A stretch of DNA of 34,508 nucleotides from Prevotella sp. (lineage in GTDB: Bacteria > Bacteroidota > Bacteroidia > Bacteroidales > Bacteroidaceae). This document shows positions 4,203-32,952 of this stretch, one piece after another. Every line of letters starts with the position of its first letter. Within the stretch, counting starts at the first letter, position 1. The stretch is from the NCBI GenBank assembly GCA_017447515.1, contig JAFSNG010000066.1, forward strand, positions 1 to 34,508, read 5' to 3'. Under the pieces are notes generated by a model. It searched no databases and had not been told where the DNA came from. It saw only the letters and a program-made list of their open reading frames with translations. The translations under genes were made by a program, and so were the position numbers.

Positions 4203-4233
4203 TTGTAAATCGGAAATAAAGTATGTACATTTG
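4203..4233 (+). promoter_or_regulatory. Promoter of the charged-protein/hppA operon
   Basis: TTG (4203-4205), 20-base spacer, TACATTTG (4226-4233). The -7 box overlaps an in-frame ATG at 4223, which therefore cannot be the start codon and points to ATG 4262 instead. Confidence 0.7.
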
Positions 4234-4261
4234 CAGACAAATACGAAAAAACAAACCGAAA

Positions 4262-5242
4262 ATGAAAGAAATGAAAGAAGCAAAAGCAACAAAAACAGCA
4301 AAAGAGGCTAAGGAAGCAAATGTTGCAAAAGTAGCTAAGGAGCCTAAAGAAGCTAAAGCGCCAAAAGAGGTTAAAGAGCCCAAGGAAGCTAAAGTAGCAA
4401 AAGTGGCTAAGGAAACCAAAGGGTCTAAAGAACCTAAAGAGACGAGGGATGAAAAGAGCTTAAGTATCAAGACCTTATCGAAGAGTAGTGTATGGGATTT
4501 GCAGGAGAACGATGTTTTCCGTCTGTTGGAAACCGTTGAGCGGGATGCCGAGTTGAGGGAAAATTTCCGCCACTATCTTGACATTGTTCGCAGCGCATTC
4601 CTCGTTGAGGAATTGAAGGACGATGACAAGCGCGTCAAGCAGAAGTACACCAATCTTGACTACAAGGTGGGCAGCATCAGGACCGGCGAAGAGTCGAAGT
4701 TGGTTCTTGCCGTCAAGAAACGCCCAATTCTGCGTGTTACTGACCTGACATACGAGAACATCCGTCACATCTCTGCTGCTAAATTGGTCGAGGTACTTGA
4801 CCGCAACTTCGGCGGTGGTTGGGATTCGCTGTCACAGTCCATTCAGGACATCATCGAGAGCGGTTTTGACATCTCTACCACTACCCTGCCCAAAGACCGT
4901 CTCCACAAGAAAGGCGGCATGTATGAAAAAAAAGTTGCCGACGGTTACGAGGTGCTCGAAGTGGCAAAGGGGTCGTGGGTAGAGGCCATCTTTGCCAAGT
5001 TGAAGCCCGAAAGCTACAAACCCCGCATGGTGTTTGACACCCATTCGGAAGAAGGCGACGAAGATGATGAGGATATCGACTTGCCCGAGGACGATTACAA
5101 CAAGCCCGACGAGGACGATGATGACTTTGGCGAGCCCAACGACGACGACATTACCGAGGACAACTACCGTACAACCTTCGAAATCGAAACGGACGGTGAC
5201 GAGGATGCCGAGAGTATGTCCGACTTCATCGCTGACGAGTAA
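4262..5242 (+). CDS. Charged repeat protein of unknown function
   Basis: 326 residues from ATG 4262; an upstream in-frame ATG at 4223 lies in the promoter. I do not recognise the family. Three parts are visible. Residues 1 to about 63 form a tripeptide-period tract of (A/P)-K-(E/V) units such as AKEPKEAKAPKEVKEPKEAK, rich in Lys and Glu. Residues about 65-260 form a folded-looking domain (from SVWDLQENDVFRLLETVERD to SWVEAIFAKLKPESYKPRM) with helices and a KKRPILRV strand. The last 65 or so residues are extremely acidic (runs of D and E such as DDEDDEDIDLPEDDY). No signal peptide or membrane segment, so cytoplasmic. hppA follows 34 bases downstream with no promoter or terminator between, suggesting co-transcription. 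A nucleic-acid-binding or chaperone-like role is a guess only. Confidence 0.8.
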   Translation: MKEMKEAKATKTAKEAKEANVAKVAKEPKEAKAPKEVKEPKEAKVAKVAKETKGSKEPKETRDEKSLSIKTLSKSSVWDLQENDVFRLLETVERDAELRENFRHYLDIVRSAFLVEELKDDDKRVKQKYTNLDYKVGSIRTGEESKLVLAVKKRPILRVTDLTYENIRHISAAKLVEVLDRNFGGGWDSLSQSIQDIIESGFDISTTTLPKDRLHKKGGMYEKKVADGYEVLEVAKGSWVEAIFAKLKPESYKPRMVFDTHSEEGDEDDEDIDLPEDDYNKPDEDDDDFGEPNDDDITEDNYRTTFEIETDGDEDAESMSDFIADE

Positions 5243-10958: not shown

Positions 10959-11567
10959 TCAGGGTAGGACGAAGCGGAGCGATTCGAGGAACTGGACGAG
11001 GAGGATGTAGACGGGCAGCAGCGGCGCACACTGGCGCAGACCGTAGACCAGCGCGCCGTAGATGTCGGCCAGCGACTGGAACGAGCCGGCGACAATGCCG
11101 TAAAGAATGGCGGCCATGAGGACACCGAAGGCAGCAAGGGGCACTAGGCTGGCGGAGAACGGCGAGGGCCAGAGCAGTCCGCTGGCGGAGAGCAGCACGG
11201 CATGAGGCACGGCGGTGAGCAGCACGACGATGCCGACGTAGACGACGAGGAACGCCGCGGCAATGATGCGGGCACGGCTGGCGCGATAGGTGTTCTCGGT
11301 CAGCGCGGCGTGTGGTGAGGCGGTATCGCGCGGACCGCGGCAACGGACGACAGCCCCGTAGGCCATAGCCAGCAGCAGCAGCCAGACGAGCACGGGGCTG
11401 GCGACGCTCTCGGCGAAATGGCCCAGGAACCAGCGGATACCCTCCTCGGACAACATGCTGCGTACGCCGCTCAACGGCAGCGCGGCGCTCCACAGCCACG
11501 AGCCCAGCATGAGCAGCTGCTGGGCTAGCACCAGCGCAAGGGCAATATGTGGGAGTTTAGTCCGCAT
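10959..11567 (-). CDS. Short AbgT-like membrane protein
   Basis: 202 residues from ATG 11567, which overlaps the end of the response regulator gene by 11 bases. About five hydrophobic segments. Two stretches resemble the AbgT (p-aminobenzoyl-glutamate) transporter family: MLSEEGIRWFLGHFAESVAS near residue 38, like the periplasmic LxxxGIRWxxxxxVxNF segment, and YGIVAGSFQSLADIYGALVY near the end, like the last AbgT domain. AbgT proteins have about 500 residues, so the middle (the core transport helices) is absent. It therefore is probably not a full transporter; a helper or sensor partner is possible. Its coupling to the two-component genes suggests a connected role. The family call is moderate; membrane location is firm. 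Confidence 0.75.
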   Translation of the reverse strand: MRTKLPHIALALVLAQQLLMLGSWLWSAALPLSGVRSMLSEEGIRWFLGHFAESVASPVLVWLLLLAMAYGAVVRCRGPRDTASPHAALTENTYRASRARIIAAAFLVVYVGIVVLLTAVPHAVLLSASGLLWPSPFSASLVPLAAFGVLMAAILYGIVAGSFQSLADIYGALVYGLRQCAPLLPVYILLVQFLESLRFVLP

Positions 11568-12273
11568 CGGGCACAAGATTGTCAATATCGAGGATGCGCA
11601 GTTCGAGGGCGCGGACGACGAGGCGCGTGGCATTGACGCTCTCGCCGCCGGGGAACAGTTTCTTCACCAGTTCGTTCTGGCGCTTCTCCAGACTCTTCAC
11701 GCCGAAGGGCATGCCACGCAGCGTGGTAATCTGCTCCTTGGTATAGCCCAGCGCGAGGTGGCGCAGGAACCGCTCGTCGTACTCGTCGATTTCGTAGTCG
11801 ATGAGCGCCTCCTGGCTGGCCAGCTGCGATGACACGGCCTGCTTGAAGCGGTCGACGATGCGTTCGAGGATGGGTTCATTGAACACCAGCGCCTTGCCCT
11901 CCATGACGGAGCGCACGTCGTGGCGCGTCAGCAGTTCGCCGCTCTTCAGTATGATGCCGTCAGCACCCGCATCAAGCACGTCGACCCACAGTTTCTCGTT
12001 GAGTATTTCGCCAGTGAAGATGAGCACCTTCACCTGCGGGTACATCTCCTTGGTCTGGCGACATATCTCGACGCCGACGGTCGTGGAGCCGCCCAACCCG
12101 AGGTCGAGCAGCACGAGGTCGGGCTGCTGTTTCTTGATGAGTCGCCAGAACGACAGCTCGTCGTCGGCAGTACCGATGACTTCTGCCTCAGGAATCTCGT
12201 TACGAACGATACCTTCCGTGCCTTTGAGTTCGAGGGGCACATCCTCGACGATAATAAGTTTAAACCTGTCCAT
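11557..12273 (-). CDS. Response regulator with LuxR-like DNA-binding domain
   Basis: 238 residues. Receiver domain at 1 to about 125 with the acidic pair E10/D11, phosphoacceptor D57 (LVLLDLGLGG), T87 and K110 in the expected places. The C-terminal part, YDERFLRHLALGYTKEQITT to KSLEKRQNELVKKLFPGGES, has the layout of a LuxR/NarL helix-turn-helix, though rather diverged. It begins inside the last 14 bases of the sensor kinase gene, a typical translationally coupled cognate pair, and overlaps the next gene by 11 bases. Target genes are not evident; the surrounding KDG operon is a natural candidate. Confidence 0.93.
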   Translation of the reverse strand: MDRFKLIIVEDVPLELKGTEGIVRNEIPEAEVIGTADDELSFWRLIKKQQPDLVLLDLGLGGSTTVGVEICRQTKEMYPQVKVLIFTGEILNEKLWVDVLDAGADGIILKSGELLTRHDVRSVMEGKALVFNEPILERIVDRFKQAVSSQLASQEALIDYEIDEYDERFLRHLALGYTKEQITTLRGMPFGVKSLEKRQNELVKKLFPGGESVNATRLVVRALELRILDIDNLVPDAD

Positions 12274-15200
12274 TGTTGTATGTTGGTAGTGTGATTGTTA
12301 TTTCTTGCGGTGTGACCGTAATGCCACAGGCACGACGATGGGTAGCGTCGCCGTGGTCGCGAATAATCTGACGGCAACGCAGGTAGTCGATGTCCGACAG
12401 CGGCTTTTCGCTTGTGACGGTGAAGACGACATAACGGTCGTCCTGCCGCGTCACCTCGACATGCTGCGGACGGAGGATTTCGGCCAGGTAGCGCAACAGG
12501 TTTTCGTTGCCCAGCACAGGCGTATTCCACAGCGTCGTGTGGCTGACGTGAAGTTTGACCTGCTCCACCTGTCGGACGGCCTGCGTGCTGAGCAGCCCGT
12601 ACAGCTCGCGGTAGTATTGTGTCACCTCGTCCAGCGAGCCGACATCGCCCTTGTCGACGAGCTGTCGAATACGTGAAGGGTAGTACATCGTCTCATGCTT
12701 CAGCGCGGAGAGGCAGTTGTCGAGTACGTTGTTGGCCACATGGAGCTTGTTGTCCTCCAGCTCGGCACAGCGCAGCTCGTCGTCGGCCAGTTCGATGTTG
12801 TCCAACTGCATGCGCTCGCGGCGGTGGCGGTCGTAGAGACGGTGACGGTAGTACATCATATAGTAGGCTGGCACGATGAGCAACAGGATGACGATGAGCA
12901 GTATCATGGCAATGCGTTTGTTGGACTGCGACTGCTGCATGACGCGGCAATAGTCGGCCAGCGTGTTGTCGGCAGAGAGCTCTTTAAAGAGCTGGGTGTA
13001 CACCTTATTATTATATATATAGAGCGGCCACTCGTGGAGCGCCAATGCGGCGACGGCACTCTCGTTGCGGATATCGAGGATAATCTGGTAATTGACGTCG
13101 ACGCTGTCGTGGAGCCACTCAATCTCGGCAGGCAGGGACGAGGCATCGGTACCGTCGGCAGTCATGAGCAACAGGCTGTGGGGATGGTGTTGCAAATAGT
13201 GGCGGTTCAGTGCCGCGCGGCAGGAGTCGGCAAACAGCAATGTGCGCTCGTACTGTCCGTTGACGTTGCAGAAGTAGGCGGAGTCGGCAAAGACGTGGGC
13301 GCTGTCTATGGCTGTTGGTTGTTGGTTGTTAGCTGTTAGCTGTTGGCTGTTAGCTAATTGCGAATAGCCAAAAGCCAATAGCCAAATGCCAATAGCCAGA
13401 AGCTTTCCCTTCGGCAGGCGGAAGAAGAAACGCGACCCCCTACCCTGCTCGCTCTCGGCGGACAGCTGGCAGACACTGAAGAGCTGGCTCATCTTGCGGT
13501 ATTTCTCGATGATACCCTTGCAATTCATCAGTCCGAAGCCGTGTTCGCCAGTCACCTTATGGTCGAAAGCGTGAGCCAGCTGTTCGTCGGTCATGCCACA
13601 GCCGGTATCAGCCACGGACAGCTCCACGTAGTCAGCCTGTTCGGTGGCCGAGATGGTGACGCTGCCACCCTTGTCGGTGAACTTGCGGGCGTTGTCGGCC
13701 AGCGTGTTGAGCATGAAGAGCGTCAGCACGCGATCAGCCTTGACAATGGCATCGGTGGGTTCGACGCTGAGCGATACGCCTTTCATGTCGAATGCCGAGC
13801 GGCTGCGACCCACAATGTCGAACAGCGGTTGCAAGGGGAAGCTCTCGATGTGGAGGTTCAGTTCGCCGCGACGCAGCTGAATCCACGTCGTCAGCAGGTC
13901 GTTTTGCTCGTTGATTTTGTCGGTGACCTCACGGATATAGTCGAGGCGTTCGTGGTTTTCTGGATTGTCAGGATTTTCTATAGGTTCTTGAGATTCTAGA
14001 TGTTTCACTTCGTGGCGAATGCGGTCGATGAGCGGCAGGATGCCCACAACCACCGACACCTTGGCACGCTGATCGAGATTGCGACGCTCGGACTGTTCGA
14101 CACTCAGCTGTCGCATACGAACTTCTTCGGACTTCTGTTCGAGCACGTCGTCGAGCTCATTACCATCCTTGCTGCGGTGATTGAGGTAGTTGAACAACCA
14201 AAGCAGGAACAGTAGTAACACAATAGCGCAAACGACGGCAATGAGCATCCAGTTGAGCTGCTCGGAGGCTTTGTCGTAATGGGCGGCACGCGATTCAAGC
14301 TCACGATCCTGACGAGTTTGTTCCTGCAAGTCGAGGTAGAGGTTGCGGTTGTAGTCGCTGGCAGCCTTGTCGTTCAGGGCGGCATAGGCCACACTGAGCT
14401 GCTCGCGGATAGAGGCCACAAGGTCAGGGGCTTGATTGATGGTGGTGTCGGAGAGCGCCTTGTTCAGATGTTCAAGCGCCATCTCGTCGTCGCCGATGGC
14501 ATGATAGCAGGAGGCCAGCGTACGATGGGCACCGGCAATCTGGTAGATGTCGCCATAGTCCTCAAACAACTGCAACGCCTCCTCTGCCAGTTCCAGATCG
14601 CCAGTATGGTCGGCCAGTGCCTCCTTGGCCTGCGCCTCGAAATAAGGATAGTCGTGACGCTGGGCAATGGTCAGACAGCGCGTCAGACAATCCATTTCCT
14701 CCAGATAGATGTCCTCCTGGCTGCCCTCGGTGATGATGCCACCAGCGCCCATGTTGTATAGGTAATTGAGGAACTGTGCCGTGTCGCGGCGCACCTCATT
14801 AGGGTCAATCGCCATCAGGGCGTCGATGGACTGACGTTCGAGGCCTACATAATAATAGTAGGTGGAATTGACGATGCCGAACTCTGTCTCGGCATAGCGC
14901 AAGCGTTGTTGCTGGCGAGCGTCGAGTTGGTTGCGTTCTTCGTCGATTCGCTTCATGCAAGTGACCGACCGTTCACGGAAATCGTGGAAGTCCTTGTTAC
15001 GCGAGCGACGCTGACACAAGCGCATCTGTTGCACATAACACACAAGAAGTTCTATCTGATTATCAGTCAGTTGCGGTATTTCATTCAATATTTGCTCAGC
15101 CTGTTGATAATCCATTCTGACCATCTTGACAAAGGCCAGGTTATTCAGTCCTTCGGCAGTACCTTTCGCTGCTGAAGCATAATACTCAACGGAGTCAATA

Positions 15201-15328
15201 TTGCGATAGTGATAGGCATAGGAAAGAGAATTCAGCCTTTCCATCGCCTGCCTATCCGGCGATGAACAAGCTGAAAAAAGGAAAAGACCCAGTACGGCCA
15301 GAAGCCATACTGAGTCCTTAAAAGTCAT
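12260..15328 (-). CDS. Lipoprotein sensor histidine kinase with two kinase-like halves (DUF5112/DUF5113-like)
   Basis: 1022 residues from ATG 15328; an upstream ATG at 15361 lies in the aldolase gene and would hide the lipoprotein signal. Order: signal with lipobox FSAC (C21); TPR-rich periplasmic sensor about 30-355; membrane segment about 360-380; coiled dimerisation region 400-490 with RHEVKHL (H439) as the possible phosphosite; HATPase domain with LADNARKF (N546), DTGCGM (D574) and HGFGL; a second hydrophobic segment 642-655; a second periplasmic region to 805; membrane segment about 806-826; then LDNCLSALKHETMYYP (H878), which looks like an H-box, and a C-terminal domain with no N or G boxes. 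Layout resembles the DUF5112-DUF5113 kinases of Bacteroidales as I remember them. It follows the aldolase by four bases and overlaps its response regulator. Confidence 0.85.
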   Translation of the reverse strand: MTFKDSVWLLAVLGLFLFSACSSPDRQAMERLNSLSYAYHYRNIDSVEYYASAAKGTAEGLNNLAFVKMVRMDYQQAEQILNEIPQLTDNQIELLVCYVQQMRLCQRRSRNKDFHDFRERSVTCMKRIDEERNQLDARQQQRLRYAETEFGIVNSTYYYYVGLERQSIDALMAIDPNEVRRDTAQFLNYLYNMGAGGIITEGSQEDIYLEEMDCLTRCLTIAQRHDYPYFEAQAKEALADHTGDLELAEEALQLFEDYGDIYQIAGAHRTLASCYHAIGDDEMALEHLNKALSDTTINQAPDLVASIREQLSVAYAALNDKAASDYNRNLYLDLQEQTRQDRELESRAAHYDKASEQLNWMLIAVVCAIVLLLFLLWLFNYLNHRSKDGNELDDVLEQKSEEVRMRQLSVEQSERRNLDQRAKVSVVVGILPLIDRIRHEVKHLESQEPIENPDNPENHERLDYIREVTDKINEQNDLLTTWIQLRRGELNLHIESFPLQPLFDIVGRSRSAFDMKGVSLSVEPTDAIVKADRVLTLFMLNTLADNARKFTDKGGSVTISATEQADYVELSVADTGCGMTDEQLAHAFDHKVTGEHGFGLMNCKGIIEKYRKMSQLFSVCQLSAESEQGRGSRFFFRLPKGKLLAIGIWLLAFGYSQLANSQQLTANNQQPTAIDSAHVFADSAYFCNVNGQYERTLLFADSCRAALNRHYLQHHPHSLLLMTADGTDASSLPAEIEWLHDSVDVNYQIILDIRNESAVAALALHEWPLYIYNNKVYTQLFKELSADNTLADYCRVMQQSQSNKRIAMILLIVILLLIVPAYYMMYYRHRLYDRHRRERMQLDNIELADDELRCAELEDNKLHVANNVLDNCLSALKHETMYYPSRIRQLVDKGDVGSLDEVTQYYRELYGLLSTQAVRQVEQVKLHVSHTTLWNTPVLGNENLLRYLAEILRPQHVEVTRQDDRYVVFTVTSEKPLSDIDYLRCRQIIRDHGDATHRRACGITVTPQEITITLPTYNNGQV
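13311..13401. repeat. 13-unit heptanucleotide tandem repeat inside the sensor kinase gene
   Basis: Thirteen diverged 7-base units in register, each beginning with G: GCTGTTG, GTTGTTG, GTTGTTA and GCTGTTA types in the left half, and GCCAATA, GCCAAAA, GCCAAAT types in the right half. Because three units are 21 bases, the protein shows a seven-residue period: LLAIGIW, LLAFGYS, QLANSQQ, LTANNQQ. The first two heptads form the second hydrophobic segment of the kinase. Confidence 0.9.
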
Positions 15329-32317: not shown

Positions 32318-32952
32318 TGAACGTAGCGATAGTCAAATATAACGCAGGAAATATCTATTCGGTGGTGAACGCACTGAAGCGGCTGGGCATTGAACCCCTG
32401 CTGACGGACGATGCCGAGCAACTGAAAAAGGCCGACAGGGTGTTGTTCCCCGGACAGGGCCATGCCGGCGAGGCGATGAGCTATTTGAAGGCACGGCGAC
32501 TGGATGAGGTCATCCGCGACCTTCGTCAACCCGTGTTCGGCATCTGCGTTGGTCAGCAACTGTTGTGCCGTCATTCTGAGGAGGGCGACACGCAGTGCAT
32601 CGGTATTTTCGATGCCGAGGTGAAGCGTTTCCAACCTCAGCGCCACGAGGACAAGGTGCCGTGCATGGGGTGGAATGAGTTGGATGTAAGATGTCAGATG
32701 ACTGATGGAAGATGTGGAGGCGTTGACCCGTTGATGGAAGGTCTGGGTGAGCATCCTTACGTGTATTTTGTCCATAGCTTCTACGTGCCGACGTGTGCAG
32801 ACACCATTGCCACCGCCGACTACATCCTACCCTACTCTGCCTCGATGCACAAGGATAATTTCTATGCCTGCCAGTTCCACCCCGAAAAGAGTGGCAAGGT
32901 GGGCGAAAGAATCTTGGAGAATTTTCTCCAATTGACAACTGATAATGTATAA
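32317..32952 (+). CDS. hisH: Imidazole glycerol phosphate synthase, glutaminase subunit
   Basis: 211 residues. HisH supplies ammonia from glutamine to HisF for ring closure in histidine synthesis. The catalytic triad is C77 (GICVGQQLLC), H188 and E190 (CQFHPEKSG). N-terminal MNVAIVKYNAGNIYSVVNAL is the standard start. Residues 123-134 (DVRCQMTDGRCG) come from a 7-base repeat and look like an insertion in a surface loop after MGWNEL. HisA, HisF and HisI(E) follow. Two extra cysteines lie in the insert. Confidence 0.95.
   Translation: MNVAIVKYNAGNIYSVVNALKRLGIEPLLTDDAEQLKKADRVLFPGQGHAGEAMSYLKARRLDEVIRDLRQPVFGICVGQQLLCRHSEEGDTQCIGIFDAEVKRFQPQRHEDKVPCMGWNELDVRCQMTDGRCGGVDPLMEGLGEHPYVYFVHSFYVPTCADTIATADYILPYSASMHKDNFYACQFHPEKSGKVGERILENFLQLTTDNV
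32683..32717 (+). repeat. Heptanucleotide repeat inside hisH
   Basis: Five 7-base units in register, each GATGnnn (TAA, TCA, ACT, GAA, TGG). They encode residues 123-134 of HisH. Gain or loss of one unit would shift the reading frame. Confidence 0.85.

Follow-up and report, generated by a model that had tools for sequence, protein, structure and literature searches.

In-frame heptanucleotide arrays in rumen Prevotella and their recurrent position at the joint of a DUF5112/DUF5113 sensor kinase

Introduction

How does a run of tandem seven-base units come to stand in frame in the middle of a sensor kinase gene, and to code there for a hydrophobic segment? The question is raised by a stretch of DNA of 34,508 nucleotides from Prevotella sp. 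(GenBank assembly GCA_017447515.1, contig JAFSNG010000066.1, positions 1 to 34,508), here called the window. The genome of the window (G000, in which the window is contig C27) comprises 1.92 Mb in 78 contigs and is 61% complete. A first-pass annotation of the sequence had suggested that a fusion of two proteins may have drawn its linker and returning membrane segment from the repeat. Here we report that period-7 arrays are abundant in G000 and in a second genome, G055, that they sit between genes as well as in frame within genes, and that they recur in the kinase family at one position, the hydrophobic segment that separates HATPase from DUF5113. The window array is best explained as belonging to a set of period-7 arrays that extends over the genome in a rumen Prevotella lineage. 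It is probable that heptamers expanded in this lineage and were kept where a frame-independent heptapeptide was tolerated, and that one such array took over the joint segment of the kinase.

The array in the window

Thirteen heptamers in register, as the annotation had reported, were found at 13311-13401. Tandem Repeats Finder (TRF) detected period 7 at 13309-13355 (87% matches) and 13366-13403 (77%) and period 14 at 13351-13398 (85%), and the stretch 13309-13398 scored 40.5 in a scan for self-similarity at lag 7. The units are, in order, GCTGTTG, GTTGTTG, GTTGTTA, GCTGTTA, GCTGTTG, GCTGTTA, GCTAATT, GCGAATA, GCCAAAA, GCCAATA, GCCAAAT, GCCAATA, and GCCAGAA. They form two runs placed head-to-head, in which, on the plus strand, TTRGC-type units give way to those of the GCYAA type at the palindrome TTAGCTAA (13350-13357). 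A single strand of the array folds into a long imperfect hairpin (z −4.8), and none of 200 shuffles was as good.

The open reading frame (ORF) of the kinase was listed with a TTG start, and an in-frame ATG at 15328 is a possible start. From the N to the C terminus, the protein has a lipoprotein-like N terminus (judged by eye), DUF5112 (aa 41-252), a hydrophobic segment at ~aa 372-390, HATPase_c (550-651), the array-coded segment and linker (654-683), DUF5113 (686-839), a strongly hydrophobic segment starting at aa 817, and a C-terminal part. In Pfam searches, which covered the window kinase only among all kinase sequences compared, DUF5112, HATPase_c, and DUF5113 scored 277.5, 64.3, and 214 bits in one chain, above the curated cut-offs of 29.4, 26.4, and 27.1. 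Along the array the protein reads as hydrophobic LLAIGIWLLAFGYS and then as a polar linker with the end LTANNQQPTA; the local hydropathy maximum is 1.29 over 19 residues at aa 654. Translation and domain positions thus agree with the earlier description of a repeat that codes for a hydrophobic segment and polar linker at the joint of both halves. By eye, the topology suggests that the array serves as a returning membrane segment and flexible linker and nothing more; given the lipoprotein-like N terminus and the two further strongly hydrophobic stretches of the chain, a crossing would be required at this position, but the array-coded stretch itself is only moderately hydrophobic.

Seven and three have no common factor, and a pure tandem heptamer therefore spells one and the same heptapeptide whichever frame is read. 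The peptide is LAIGYWL for TTGGCTA and SQQPTAN for AGCCAAC, hydrophobic from one strand and polar from the other. As pure repeats keep their heptapeptide in every frame, the change from hydrophobic to polar marks a flip in unit orientation. The annotation had given the order of the two parts correctly, but the change is not a drift along one run.

Period-7 arrays across the genome

The lag-7 scan covered 434.5 kb of G000 (the window plus 20 stretches) and found 41 period-7 arrays with a score of at least 14; none was found in one Markov-1 resample. In 400-kb samples, 40 period-7 arrays were detected in G000 and 35 in G055, and periods 4-6 and 8-13 gave 0-5 arrays each; period 14, a multiple of 7, gave 26 and 16, respectively. 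Arrays are therefore numerous in each of these genomes, with a unit length of seven favored. The census stretches were not random, several contigs of G000 and G095 being already known to hold arrays, and on this basis the density per 100 kb was 10.0 in G000 and 8.8 in G055 (400-kb samples), 7.1 in G095 (140 kb), 3.5 in G045 (200 kb), 1.7 in G016 (60 kb only), 1.0 in G010 (200 kb), and 0.0 in G134, from another family (200 kb).

Many unit sequences were represented. The 40 arrays of G000 had 30 consensus units, some of them one base apart, and no unit was dominant. The favored units differed between the two genomes: ACCTCTC was the commonest in G000 (6/40) and AACATTG in G055 (10/35). The GCYAANN group, to which the window array belongs, accounted for 7 of the 40 (grouped by eye). 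Three consecutive GCYAANN units matched 58 times in G000, compared with 0 for the reversed control, and matches were found in 64 of 199 genomes, G000 counted. According to a crude ORF-based gene call, 24 of the 40 arrays of G000 were mostly non-coding, compared with 16% of bases, and 11 were wholly inside genes. This depletion in coding DNA suggests that the in-gene arrays are survivors.

Arrays in frame within other genes

We examined 26 array loci of G000. A family was assigned to 19 of the 20 ORFs searched against NCBIfam or Pfam; L010 gave no match in these searches and was excluded from the orientation count given below. Six loci (L003, L008, L027, L029, L045, and L047) stood outside the family searches, the array being intergenic, at an ORF edge or misplaced, or the match very short. 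Array ORFs above the NCBIfam cut-off were dnaG, alaS, dihydropteroate synthase (DHPS), folK, guaA, lpxB, and an ECF sigma factor. Those identified with Pfam were DUF6298, malectin/GH2, a periplasmic binding protein (two arrays in one ORF), LptE, a PD40/TPR protein (PorE family), HlyD, a TonB-dependent receptor, amylase, and a TPR protein. For dnaG, alaS, DHPS, folK, guaA, and lpxB, the array falls within the best-matching stretch of the profile, indicating that the frame is kept on both sides of it.

In DnaG, the array-coded loop is 12 residues longer than in G007 and G037. The short loop was present in 25 of 29 relatives, and the nearest relative, G033, has a different extension of similar length. 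In the dnaG of G031 (L266), the loop holds another heptamer in both orientations, AAGAGTT-like and then AACTCTT-like (by eye). From this by-eye reading, dnaG seems to be a second gene in which different heptamers occupy one place.

The two readings of the unit were sorted by position. There were 17 cases with one orientation in an identified protein. Of these, all 5 with the TTRGC reading were N-terminal and, by eye, signal-like, and all 12 with the GCYAA reading were internal, a sorting with a chance probability of 1.6e-4 (1 in 6188). L002 and L004, which have both orientations, were excluded from this count, and L015 and L021 are two arrays of one ORF. Without the weakest matches, L021 and L028, the counts were 4/4 and 11/11. 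In addition, a TonB-dependent-receptor-like gene had a heptamer-coded N-terminal segment in four genomes (L022, L069, L075, and L085); this set was recognized by the common motif EVVVTGTGT, with Pfam applied to L022 alone.

Head-to-head polarity

Wherever both orientations occurred in one cluster, TTRGC units came first and GCYAA units second. This order was observed in 4/4 clusters of G000 and in 8/8 of G095 (in the listed part of 157 matches), 12/12 overall, for which the probability is 2^-12 = 0.0002 if orientation is random. In 5 of the 12 clusters, the arms meet exactly at TTRGCYAA. In sampled stretches of G000 and G095, 4 of 19 clusters had two arms, again always TTRGC and then GCYAA; these overlap with the 12. 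We regard the fixed polarity as the main hint of a specific generating process. Head-to-head arrangements were also seen with other units: AAATGAG units face CTCATTT units at L153:2874-3007, and AATAGTG units are directly followed by CTCATTT units at L154:6839-6969.

Fixed polarity would also be expected if the head-to-head array were itself a mobile palindromic element that disperses into and between genes. Rickettsia palindromic elements behave in this way: they lie in frame within conserved protein genes and add a peptide to the product. The GCYAANN family stands at >20 loci of G000 on both strands, L002 is 84% identical to the window array over 81 bp, and, besides the window array, L004 (z −4.5) and L003 (z −2.5) fold better than their shuffles. 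Against this, L002, which has both arms, folds no better than shuffles (z −0.9), and 15 of the 19 sampled clusters consist of a single arm. The copies vary in arm length, in loop, and in unit variants, and no consensus of element length emerged, whereas Rickettsia palindromic elements are longer and have one consensus each; the Prevotella arrays consist of a heptamer unit in variable number and sequence. Moreover, many arrays of G000 have other units, and a target duplication or shared boundary was not seen, though no systematic search was made. Overall, a mobile element of this kind seems an unlikely source of the arrays.

The joint across the kinase family

Two sets of kinase sequences were compared: set 1 contained 30 loci including the window, and set 2 contained the best 80 of 589 confirmed matches and the window (81 sequences). 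The sets overlap partly (e.g., L093 and L155 have the same segment, as do L104 and L192), and their counts were not summed. The best 80 matches align from query residue ≤31 to ≥1014. All 81 sequences of set 2 have a hydrophobic segment between the HATPase end motif and the DUF5113 start, with best 15-residue hydropathy means from 1.33 upward. The null for lag-7 self-similarity was obtained from 3713 control windows drawn from the same kinase genes. The joint segment exceeded the 99.9% null in 20/81 sequences, and 61/81 showed no 7-periodicity above it. A lag-7 score of at least 12 was reached at the joint in 29/81 sequences, compared with 0.27% of the control windows. At each of the lags 4-6 and 8-13, 0-1 of the 81 exceeded its own null.

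Seven heptamer classes, distinguished by eye, were found at the joint: TTGGCNN, CTTTCCT, GGTTCAN, ATTCTCC, TTCACTN, CAAACCT, and ACCCATC. On a tree built without the joint segment (a quick search without bootstrap), at least 16 changes were needed for array presence or absence and at least 18 for the classes, counts that are inflated by the hard threshold because nine sequences scoring 12-15 fall below it and are taken as lacking an array. The variety of heptamer units at the joint does not depend on the choice of threshold. Two sequences of set 1 were not whole: G007 (L095) is without a stretch matching ~residues 682-764, and in G056 (L098) the first part lies in another frame.

Repeats with another unit length were also seen at this place. 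Nine-base repeats (GGTCTTATA and GGGCTTATG) form the hydrophobic segment of the joint in L104/L192 (the same segment) and L098, and the joint therefore accepts repeats of more than one period. In L138 (~4960-5070), the kinase segment looks nested, with outer arms of GGTGNTN / ACCCATC around inner arms of GGCTATT / ACCGCTA.

Segment turnover between close relatives

Three close relatives, L119-L121, carry the array in common with the window kinase, and L122, which is without it, nests among them (support 90-99). Compared with the window, L122 is 62% identical in the 150-base bin that holds the segment and 78-93% identical in the other 19 bins. Similarly, the 600-base flanks of L121 and L122 are 92.0% and 96.3% identical and the segment 58.6%, and those of L182 and L187 are 98.5% and 94.2% identical and the segment 52%. 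The segments of L122 and L187 resemble, by eye, those of array-free relatives (L127 for the former; L166 and L173 for the latter). The array of close relatives takes the position at which others have an older-looking hydrophobic segment, and the older alleles may either have persisted at the joint or have returned by recombination.

Length changes were of another kind. L119 and L121 (one pair only) differ by exactly three units, i.e., 21 bases, and the frame is kept, as frame arithmetic predicts for multiples of three. The arrays of the window and L119 are equal in length, and that of L120 is interrupted by a non-repeat stretch.

A coding heptamer of this type could act as a contingency locus that switches the kinase on and off by slippage. 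This is the case for neuO of the Escherichia coli K1 prophage CUS-3, in which the heptanucleotide AAGACTC codes for RLKTQDS heptads (PMC3046976). The window array shares with neuO tandem 7-mers within an open frame: one more heptapeptide is coded for with each three units, and any other change in number shifts the frame (PMC3046976). We consider neuO the closest coding precedent. A loss of one unit or a gain of two would create a stop directly behind the array, and a gain of one or a loss of two would create a stop 63 codons later; the earlier statement that a one-unit change cuts off the second half therefore holds for changes that are not multiples of three, with the stop immediate in only one of the two cases. 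By contrast, neuO is a single locus with its repeat at the 5' end and frequent slippage, i.e., phase variation (PMC3046976), whereas the Prevotella arrays have diverged units, many sequences, and many loci including housekeeping genes, and the kinase copy lies mid-gene (aa 654-683 of 1033). The lag-7 match over the window segment is 0.64, and the annotation was right that such divergence argues against fast slippage. Close relatives differ by a whole-segment change or by 21 bases, and the frame is open through the joint in 81/81 sequences, although the choice of the best 80 of 589 matches and of the longest frame biases against broken alleles. A phase-variable switch is therefore not supported, and we consider it very improbable.

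The proposal of the annotation that the repeat made the linker when two proteins fused fits the position of the array exactly between HATPase and DUF5113. However, most orthologues have the same chain without a detectable array and align over its whole length, and a close relative has a different segment. The annotation had itself named homologues with the hydrophobic segment but no 7-base periodicity as evidence against its proposal, and 61/81 sequences are of this type. The alignment of homologues that it had suggested as a check did reveal a conserved frame and a three-unit difference in one pair, but no detectable array in most sequences. Fusion by the repeat was consequently rejected and has almost no likelihood left. 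An assembly artifact of short-read metagenome-assembled genomes (MAGs), which the fragmented and incomplete state of G000 might suggest, is equally improbable and was rejected, because three of the four records that share the gene at 90-92% identity have the array, Prevotella sp. tc2-28 (L141; a record not labelled MAG) has a TTGGC array at the joint, and G055 holds its 35 arrays in 400 kb.

Origin and meaning of the arrays

Under the preferred reading, a lineage-specific expansion of heptamers, arrays would arise through duplication or slippage in 7-base steps, and favored units would spread between loci by copying or motif bias. Of the arrays that land in genes, most would be lost. An array would survive if it leaves the frame intact and if its heptapeptide can be tolerated at that position, as is proposed for TTRGC readings within signal peptides and membrane segments and for GCYAA readings within loops. 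In the kinase, the array would have replaced another hydrophobic segment and would now act as membrane segment and linker, its length being expected to change in three-unit (21-base) steps. A bolder reading, which we hold to be possible but doubtful, is that rumen Prevotella have an active, lineage-specific heptamer-writing process, by which each genome amplifies and disperses its own few favored heptamers, partly as fixed-polarity head-to-head palindromes whose arms join in a self-complementary center. The arrays would then be prefabricated, frame-independent protein parts, coding for a hydrophobic heptad from one strand and a polar linker heptad from the other, and would time and again displace loops, membrane segments, and signal peptides of conserved proteins. 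Under that reading, the fixed polarity would fit two broken ends that were extended at the 3' side by T/G-rich repeats and then joined.

Several observations weigh against the expansion reading. The generating step was not seen, and no polymerase, transposase, or other enzyme was sought or linked to the arrays. One and the same unit is not expected to recur at many loci if slippage from random seeds is the sole source, so motif bias or copying is needed in addition. Only 16 of the 40 arrays of G000 are mostly coding, though 84% of bases are coding. The reversed control is commoner than three GCYAANN units in G109, G141, G143, and G156, and given this excess other heptamers may be common there. 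In the kinase, the array-coded segment is among the less hydrophobic ones (best 15-residue mean 1.55, compared with a median of 1.99), and to this the inflated change count on the tree must be added. Recombination between alleles may also contribute, since the array-free L122 and L187 nest among array-bearing kin. As for the other genes, the CCA nucleotidyltransferase-like and ccsB-like array ORFs scored below the NCBIfam curated cut-offs, and the lpxB array (L028) and one signal-segment array (L021) are weak matches to the window array (E 0.645 and 0.0285, respectively). Finally, the AlaS array remakes a loop that was already variable, ranging over 5-32 residues in the 30 sequences compared; with the array it exceeds the loop of the nearest relatives, G033 and G037, by only two residues, and their loop residues TQNPISKEQ resemble the array reading SQEPIAKNQ. 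The array peptide of AlaS was found in 0/29 relatives. A clean insertion in AlaS was considered and dropped for the remaking of the loop.

Dispersed heptamers are known from other bacteria. Xanthomonas and Nostoc have dispersed heptameric repeats GGGNATC that are under-represented in coding DNA (PMC4692102); as in Prevotella, one genome has many arrays, and heptamers are preferred to units of other length (PMC4692102). The Prevotella arrays differ in having no single unit; GCYAANN is not G-tract-based, and 11/40 arrays of G000 are wholly in genes. Direct repeats of TAACTGA occur in marine Beggiatoaceae, Cyanobacteria, and five Bacteroidetes (PMC4679880). They resemble the Prevotella arrays in that a single genome carries heptamer arrays at numerous loci and in that the hosts include Bacteroidetes; they differ in their one fixed unit, which in the best-studied genome is mostly found a short way upstream of start codons (PMC4679880). 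Among the sensor kinases with DUF5112 and DUF5113 (Pfam PF17139 and PF17140), the window kinase is an ordinary member with the same domains in the same order and differs solely in the origin of the sequence of its middle hydrophobic segment. Among the matches listed from the open-licence PubMed Central literature, we found no account of in-frame heptamer arrays in Prevotella. While heptanucleotide repeats as such are already known, the in-frame scale and the recurrent replacement of a segment look new, because diverse units stand in frame at many loci and one segment of a gene family was taken over repeatedly.

Through such arrays, repeat DNA would be turned into functional protein sequence whatever the frame, the peptide being hydrophobic or polar depending on the strand. 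They would help to explain why, in rumen Prevotella, signal peptides, loops, and membrane segments turn over fast and alignments of orthologues break at such segments. They also make testable why bacterial tandem repeats favor seven bases, and G000 and G055, at ~9-10 arrays per 100 kb, offer a natural comparison with G010 of the same genus at 1.

Other features of the window

The features of the locus are collected in Table 1. The response regulator adjacent to the kinase gene is likely its partner, as judged from this adjacency. Among the matches listed, those closest to the kinase (90-92% identity) come from four records of uncultured Prevotellaceae in the RUG series; Prevotella from samples of the rumen, reticulum, and abomasum are among the other named matches.

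Table 1. Features at the kinase locus, with positions in the window
Feature	Position	Strand	Basis
Heptanucleotide array, 13 in-register units at 13311-13401	13309..13403	no strand	TRF, units, lag-7 score
Arm with GCYAANN units on the coding strand, polar linker (..LTANNQQPTA)	13311..13352	-	sequence, translation
Arm with TTRGCNN units on the coding strand, hydrophobic segment (LLAIGIWLLAFGYS)	13353..13401	-	sequence, translation
Palindromic center TTAGCTAA, meeting point of both arms in register	13350..13357	no strand	sequence
Sensor kinase, up to 1033 aa	12260..15361	-	ORF, Pfam, hydropathy peaks
Response regulator with C-terminal DUF5932	11557..12273	-	ORF, Pfam

Two further repeats were observed in the window. 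A weaker, decayed 7-base array of GATGTAA-like units at 32683-32715 (TRF, 4.7 copies, 73% matches) lies in frame within hisH (LDVRCQMTDGRCG) and is likely a second coding array of the window; its score is below the lag-7 threshold of the census. An ORF at 4223-5242 contains a 36-base repeat that codes for a Lys/Glu/Ala-rich N-terminal stretch.

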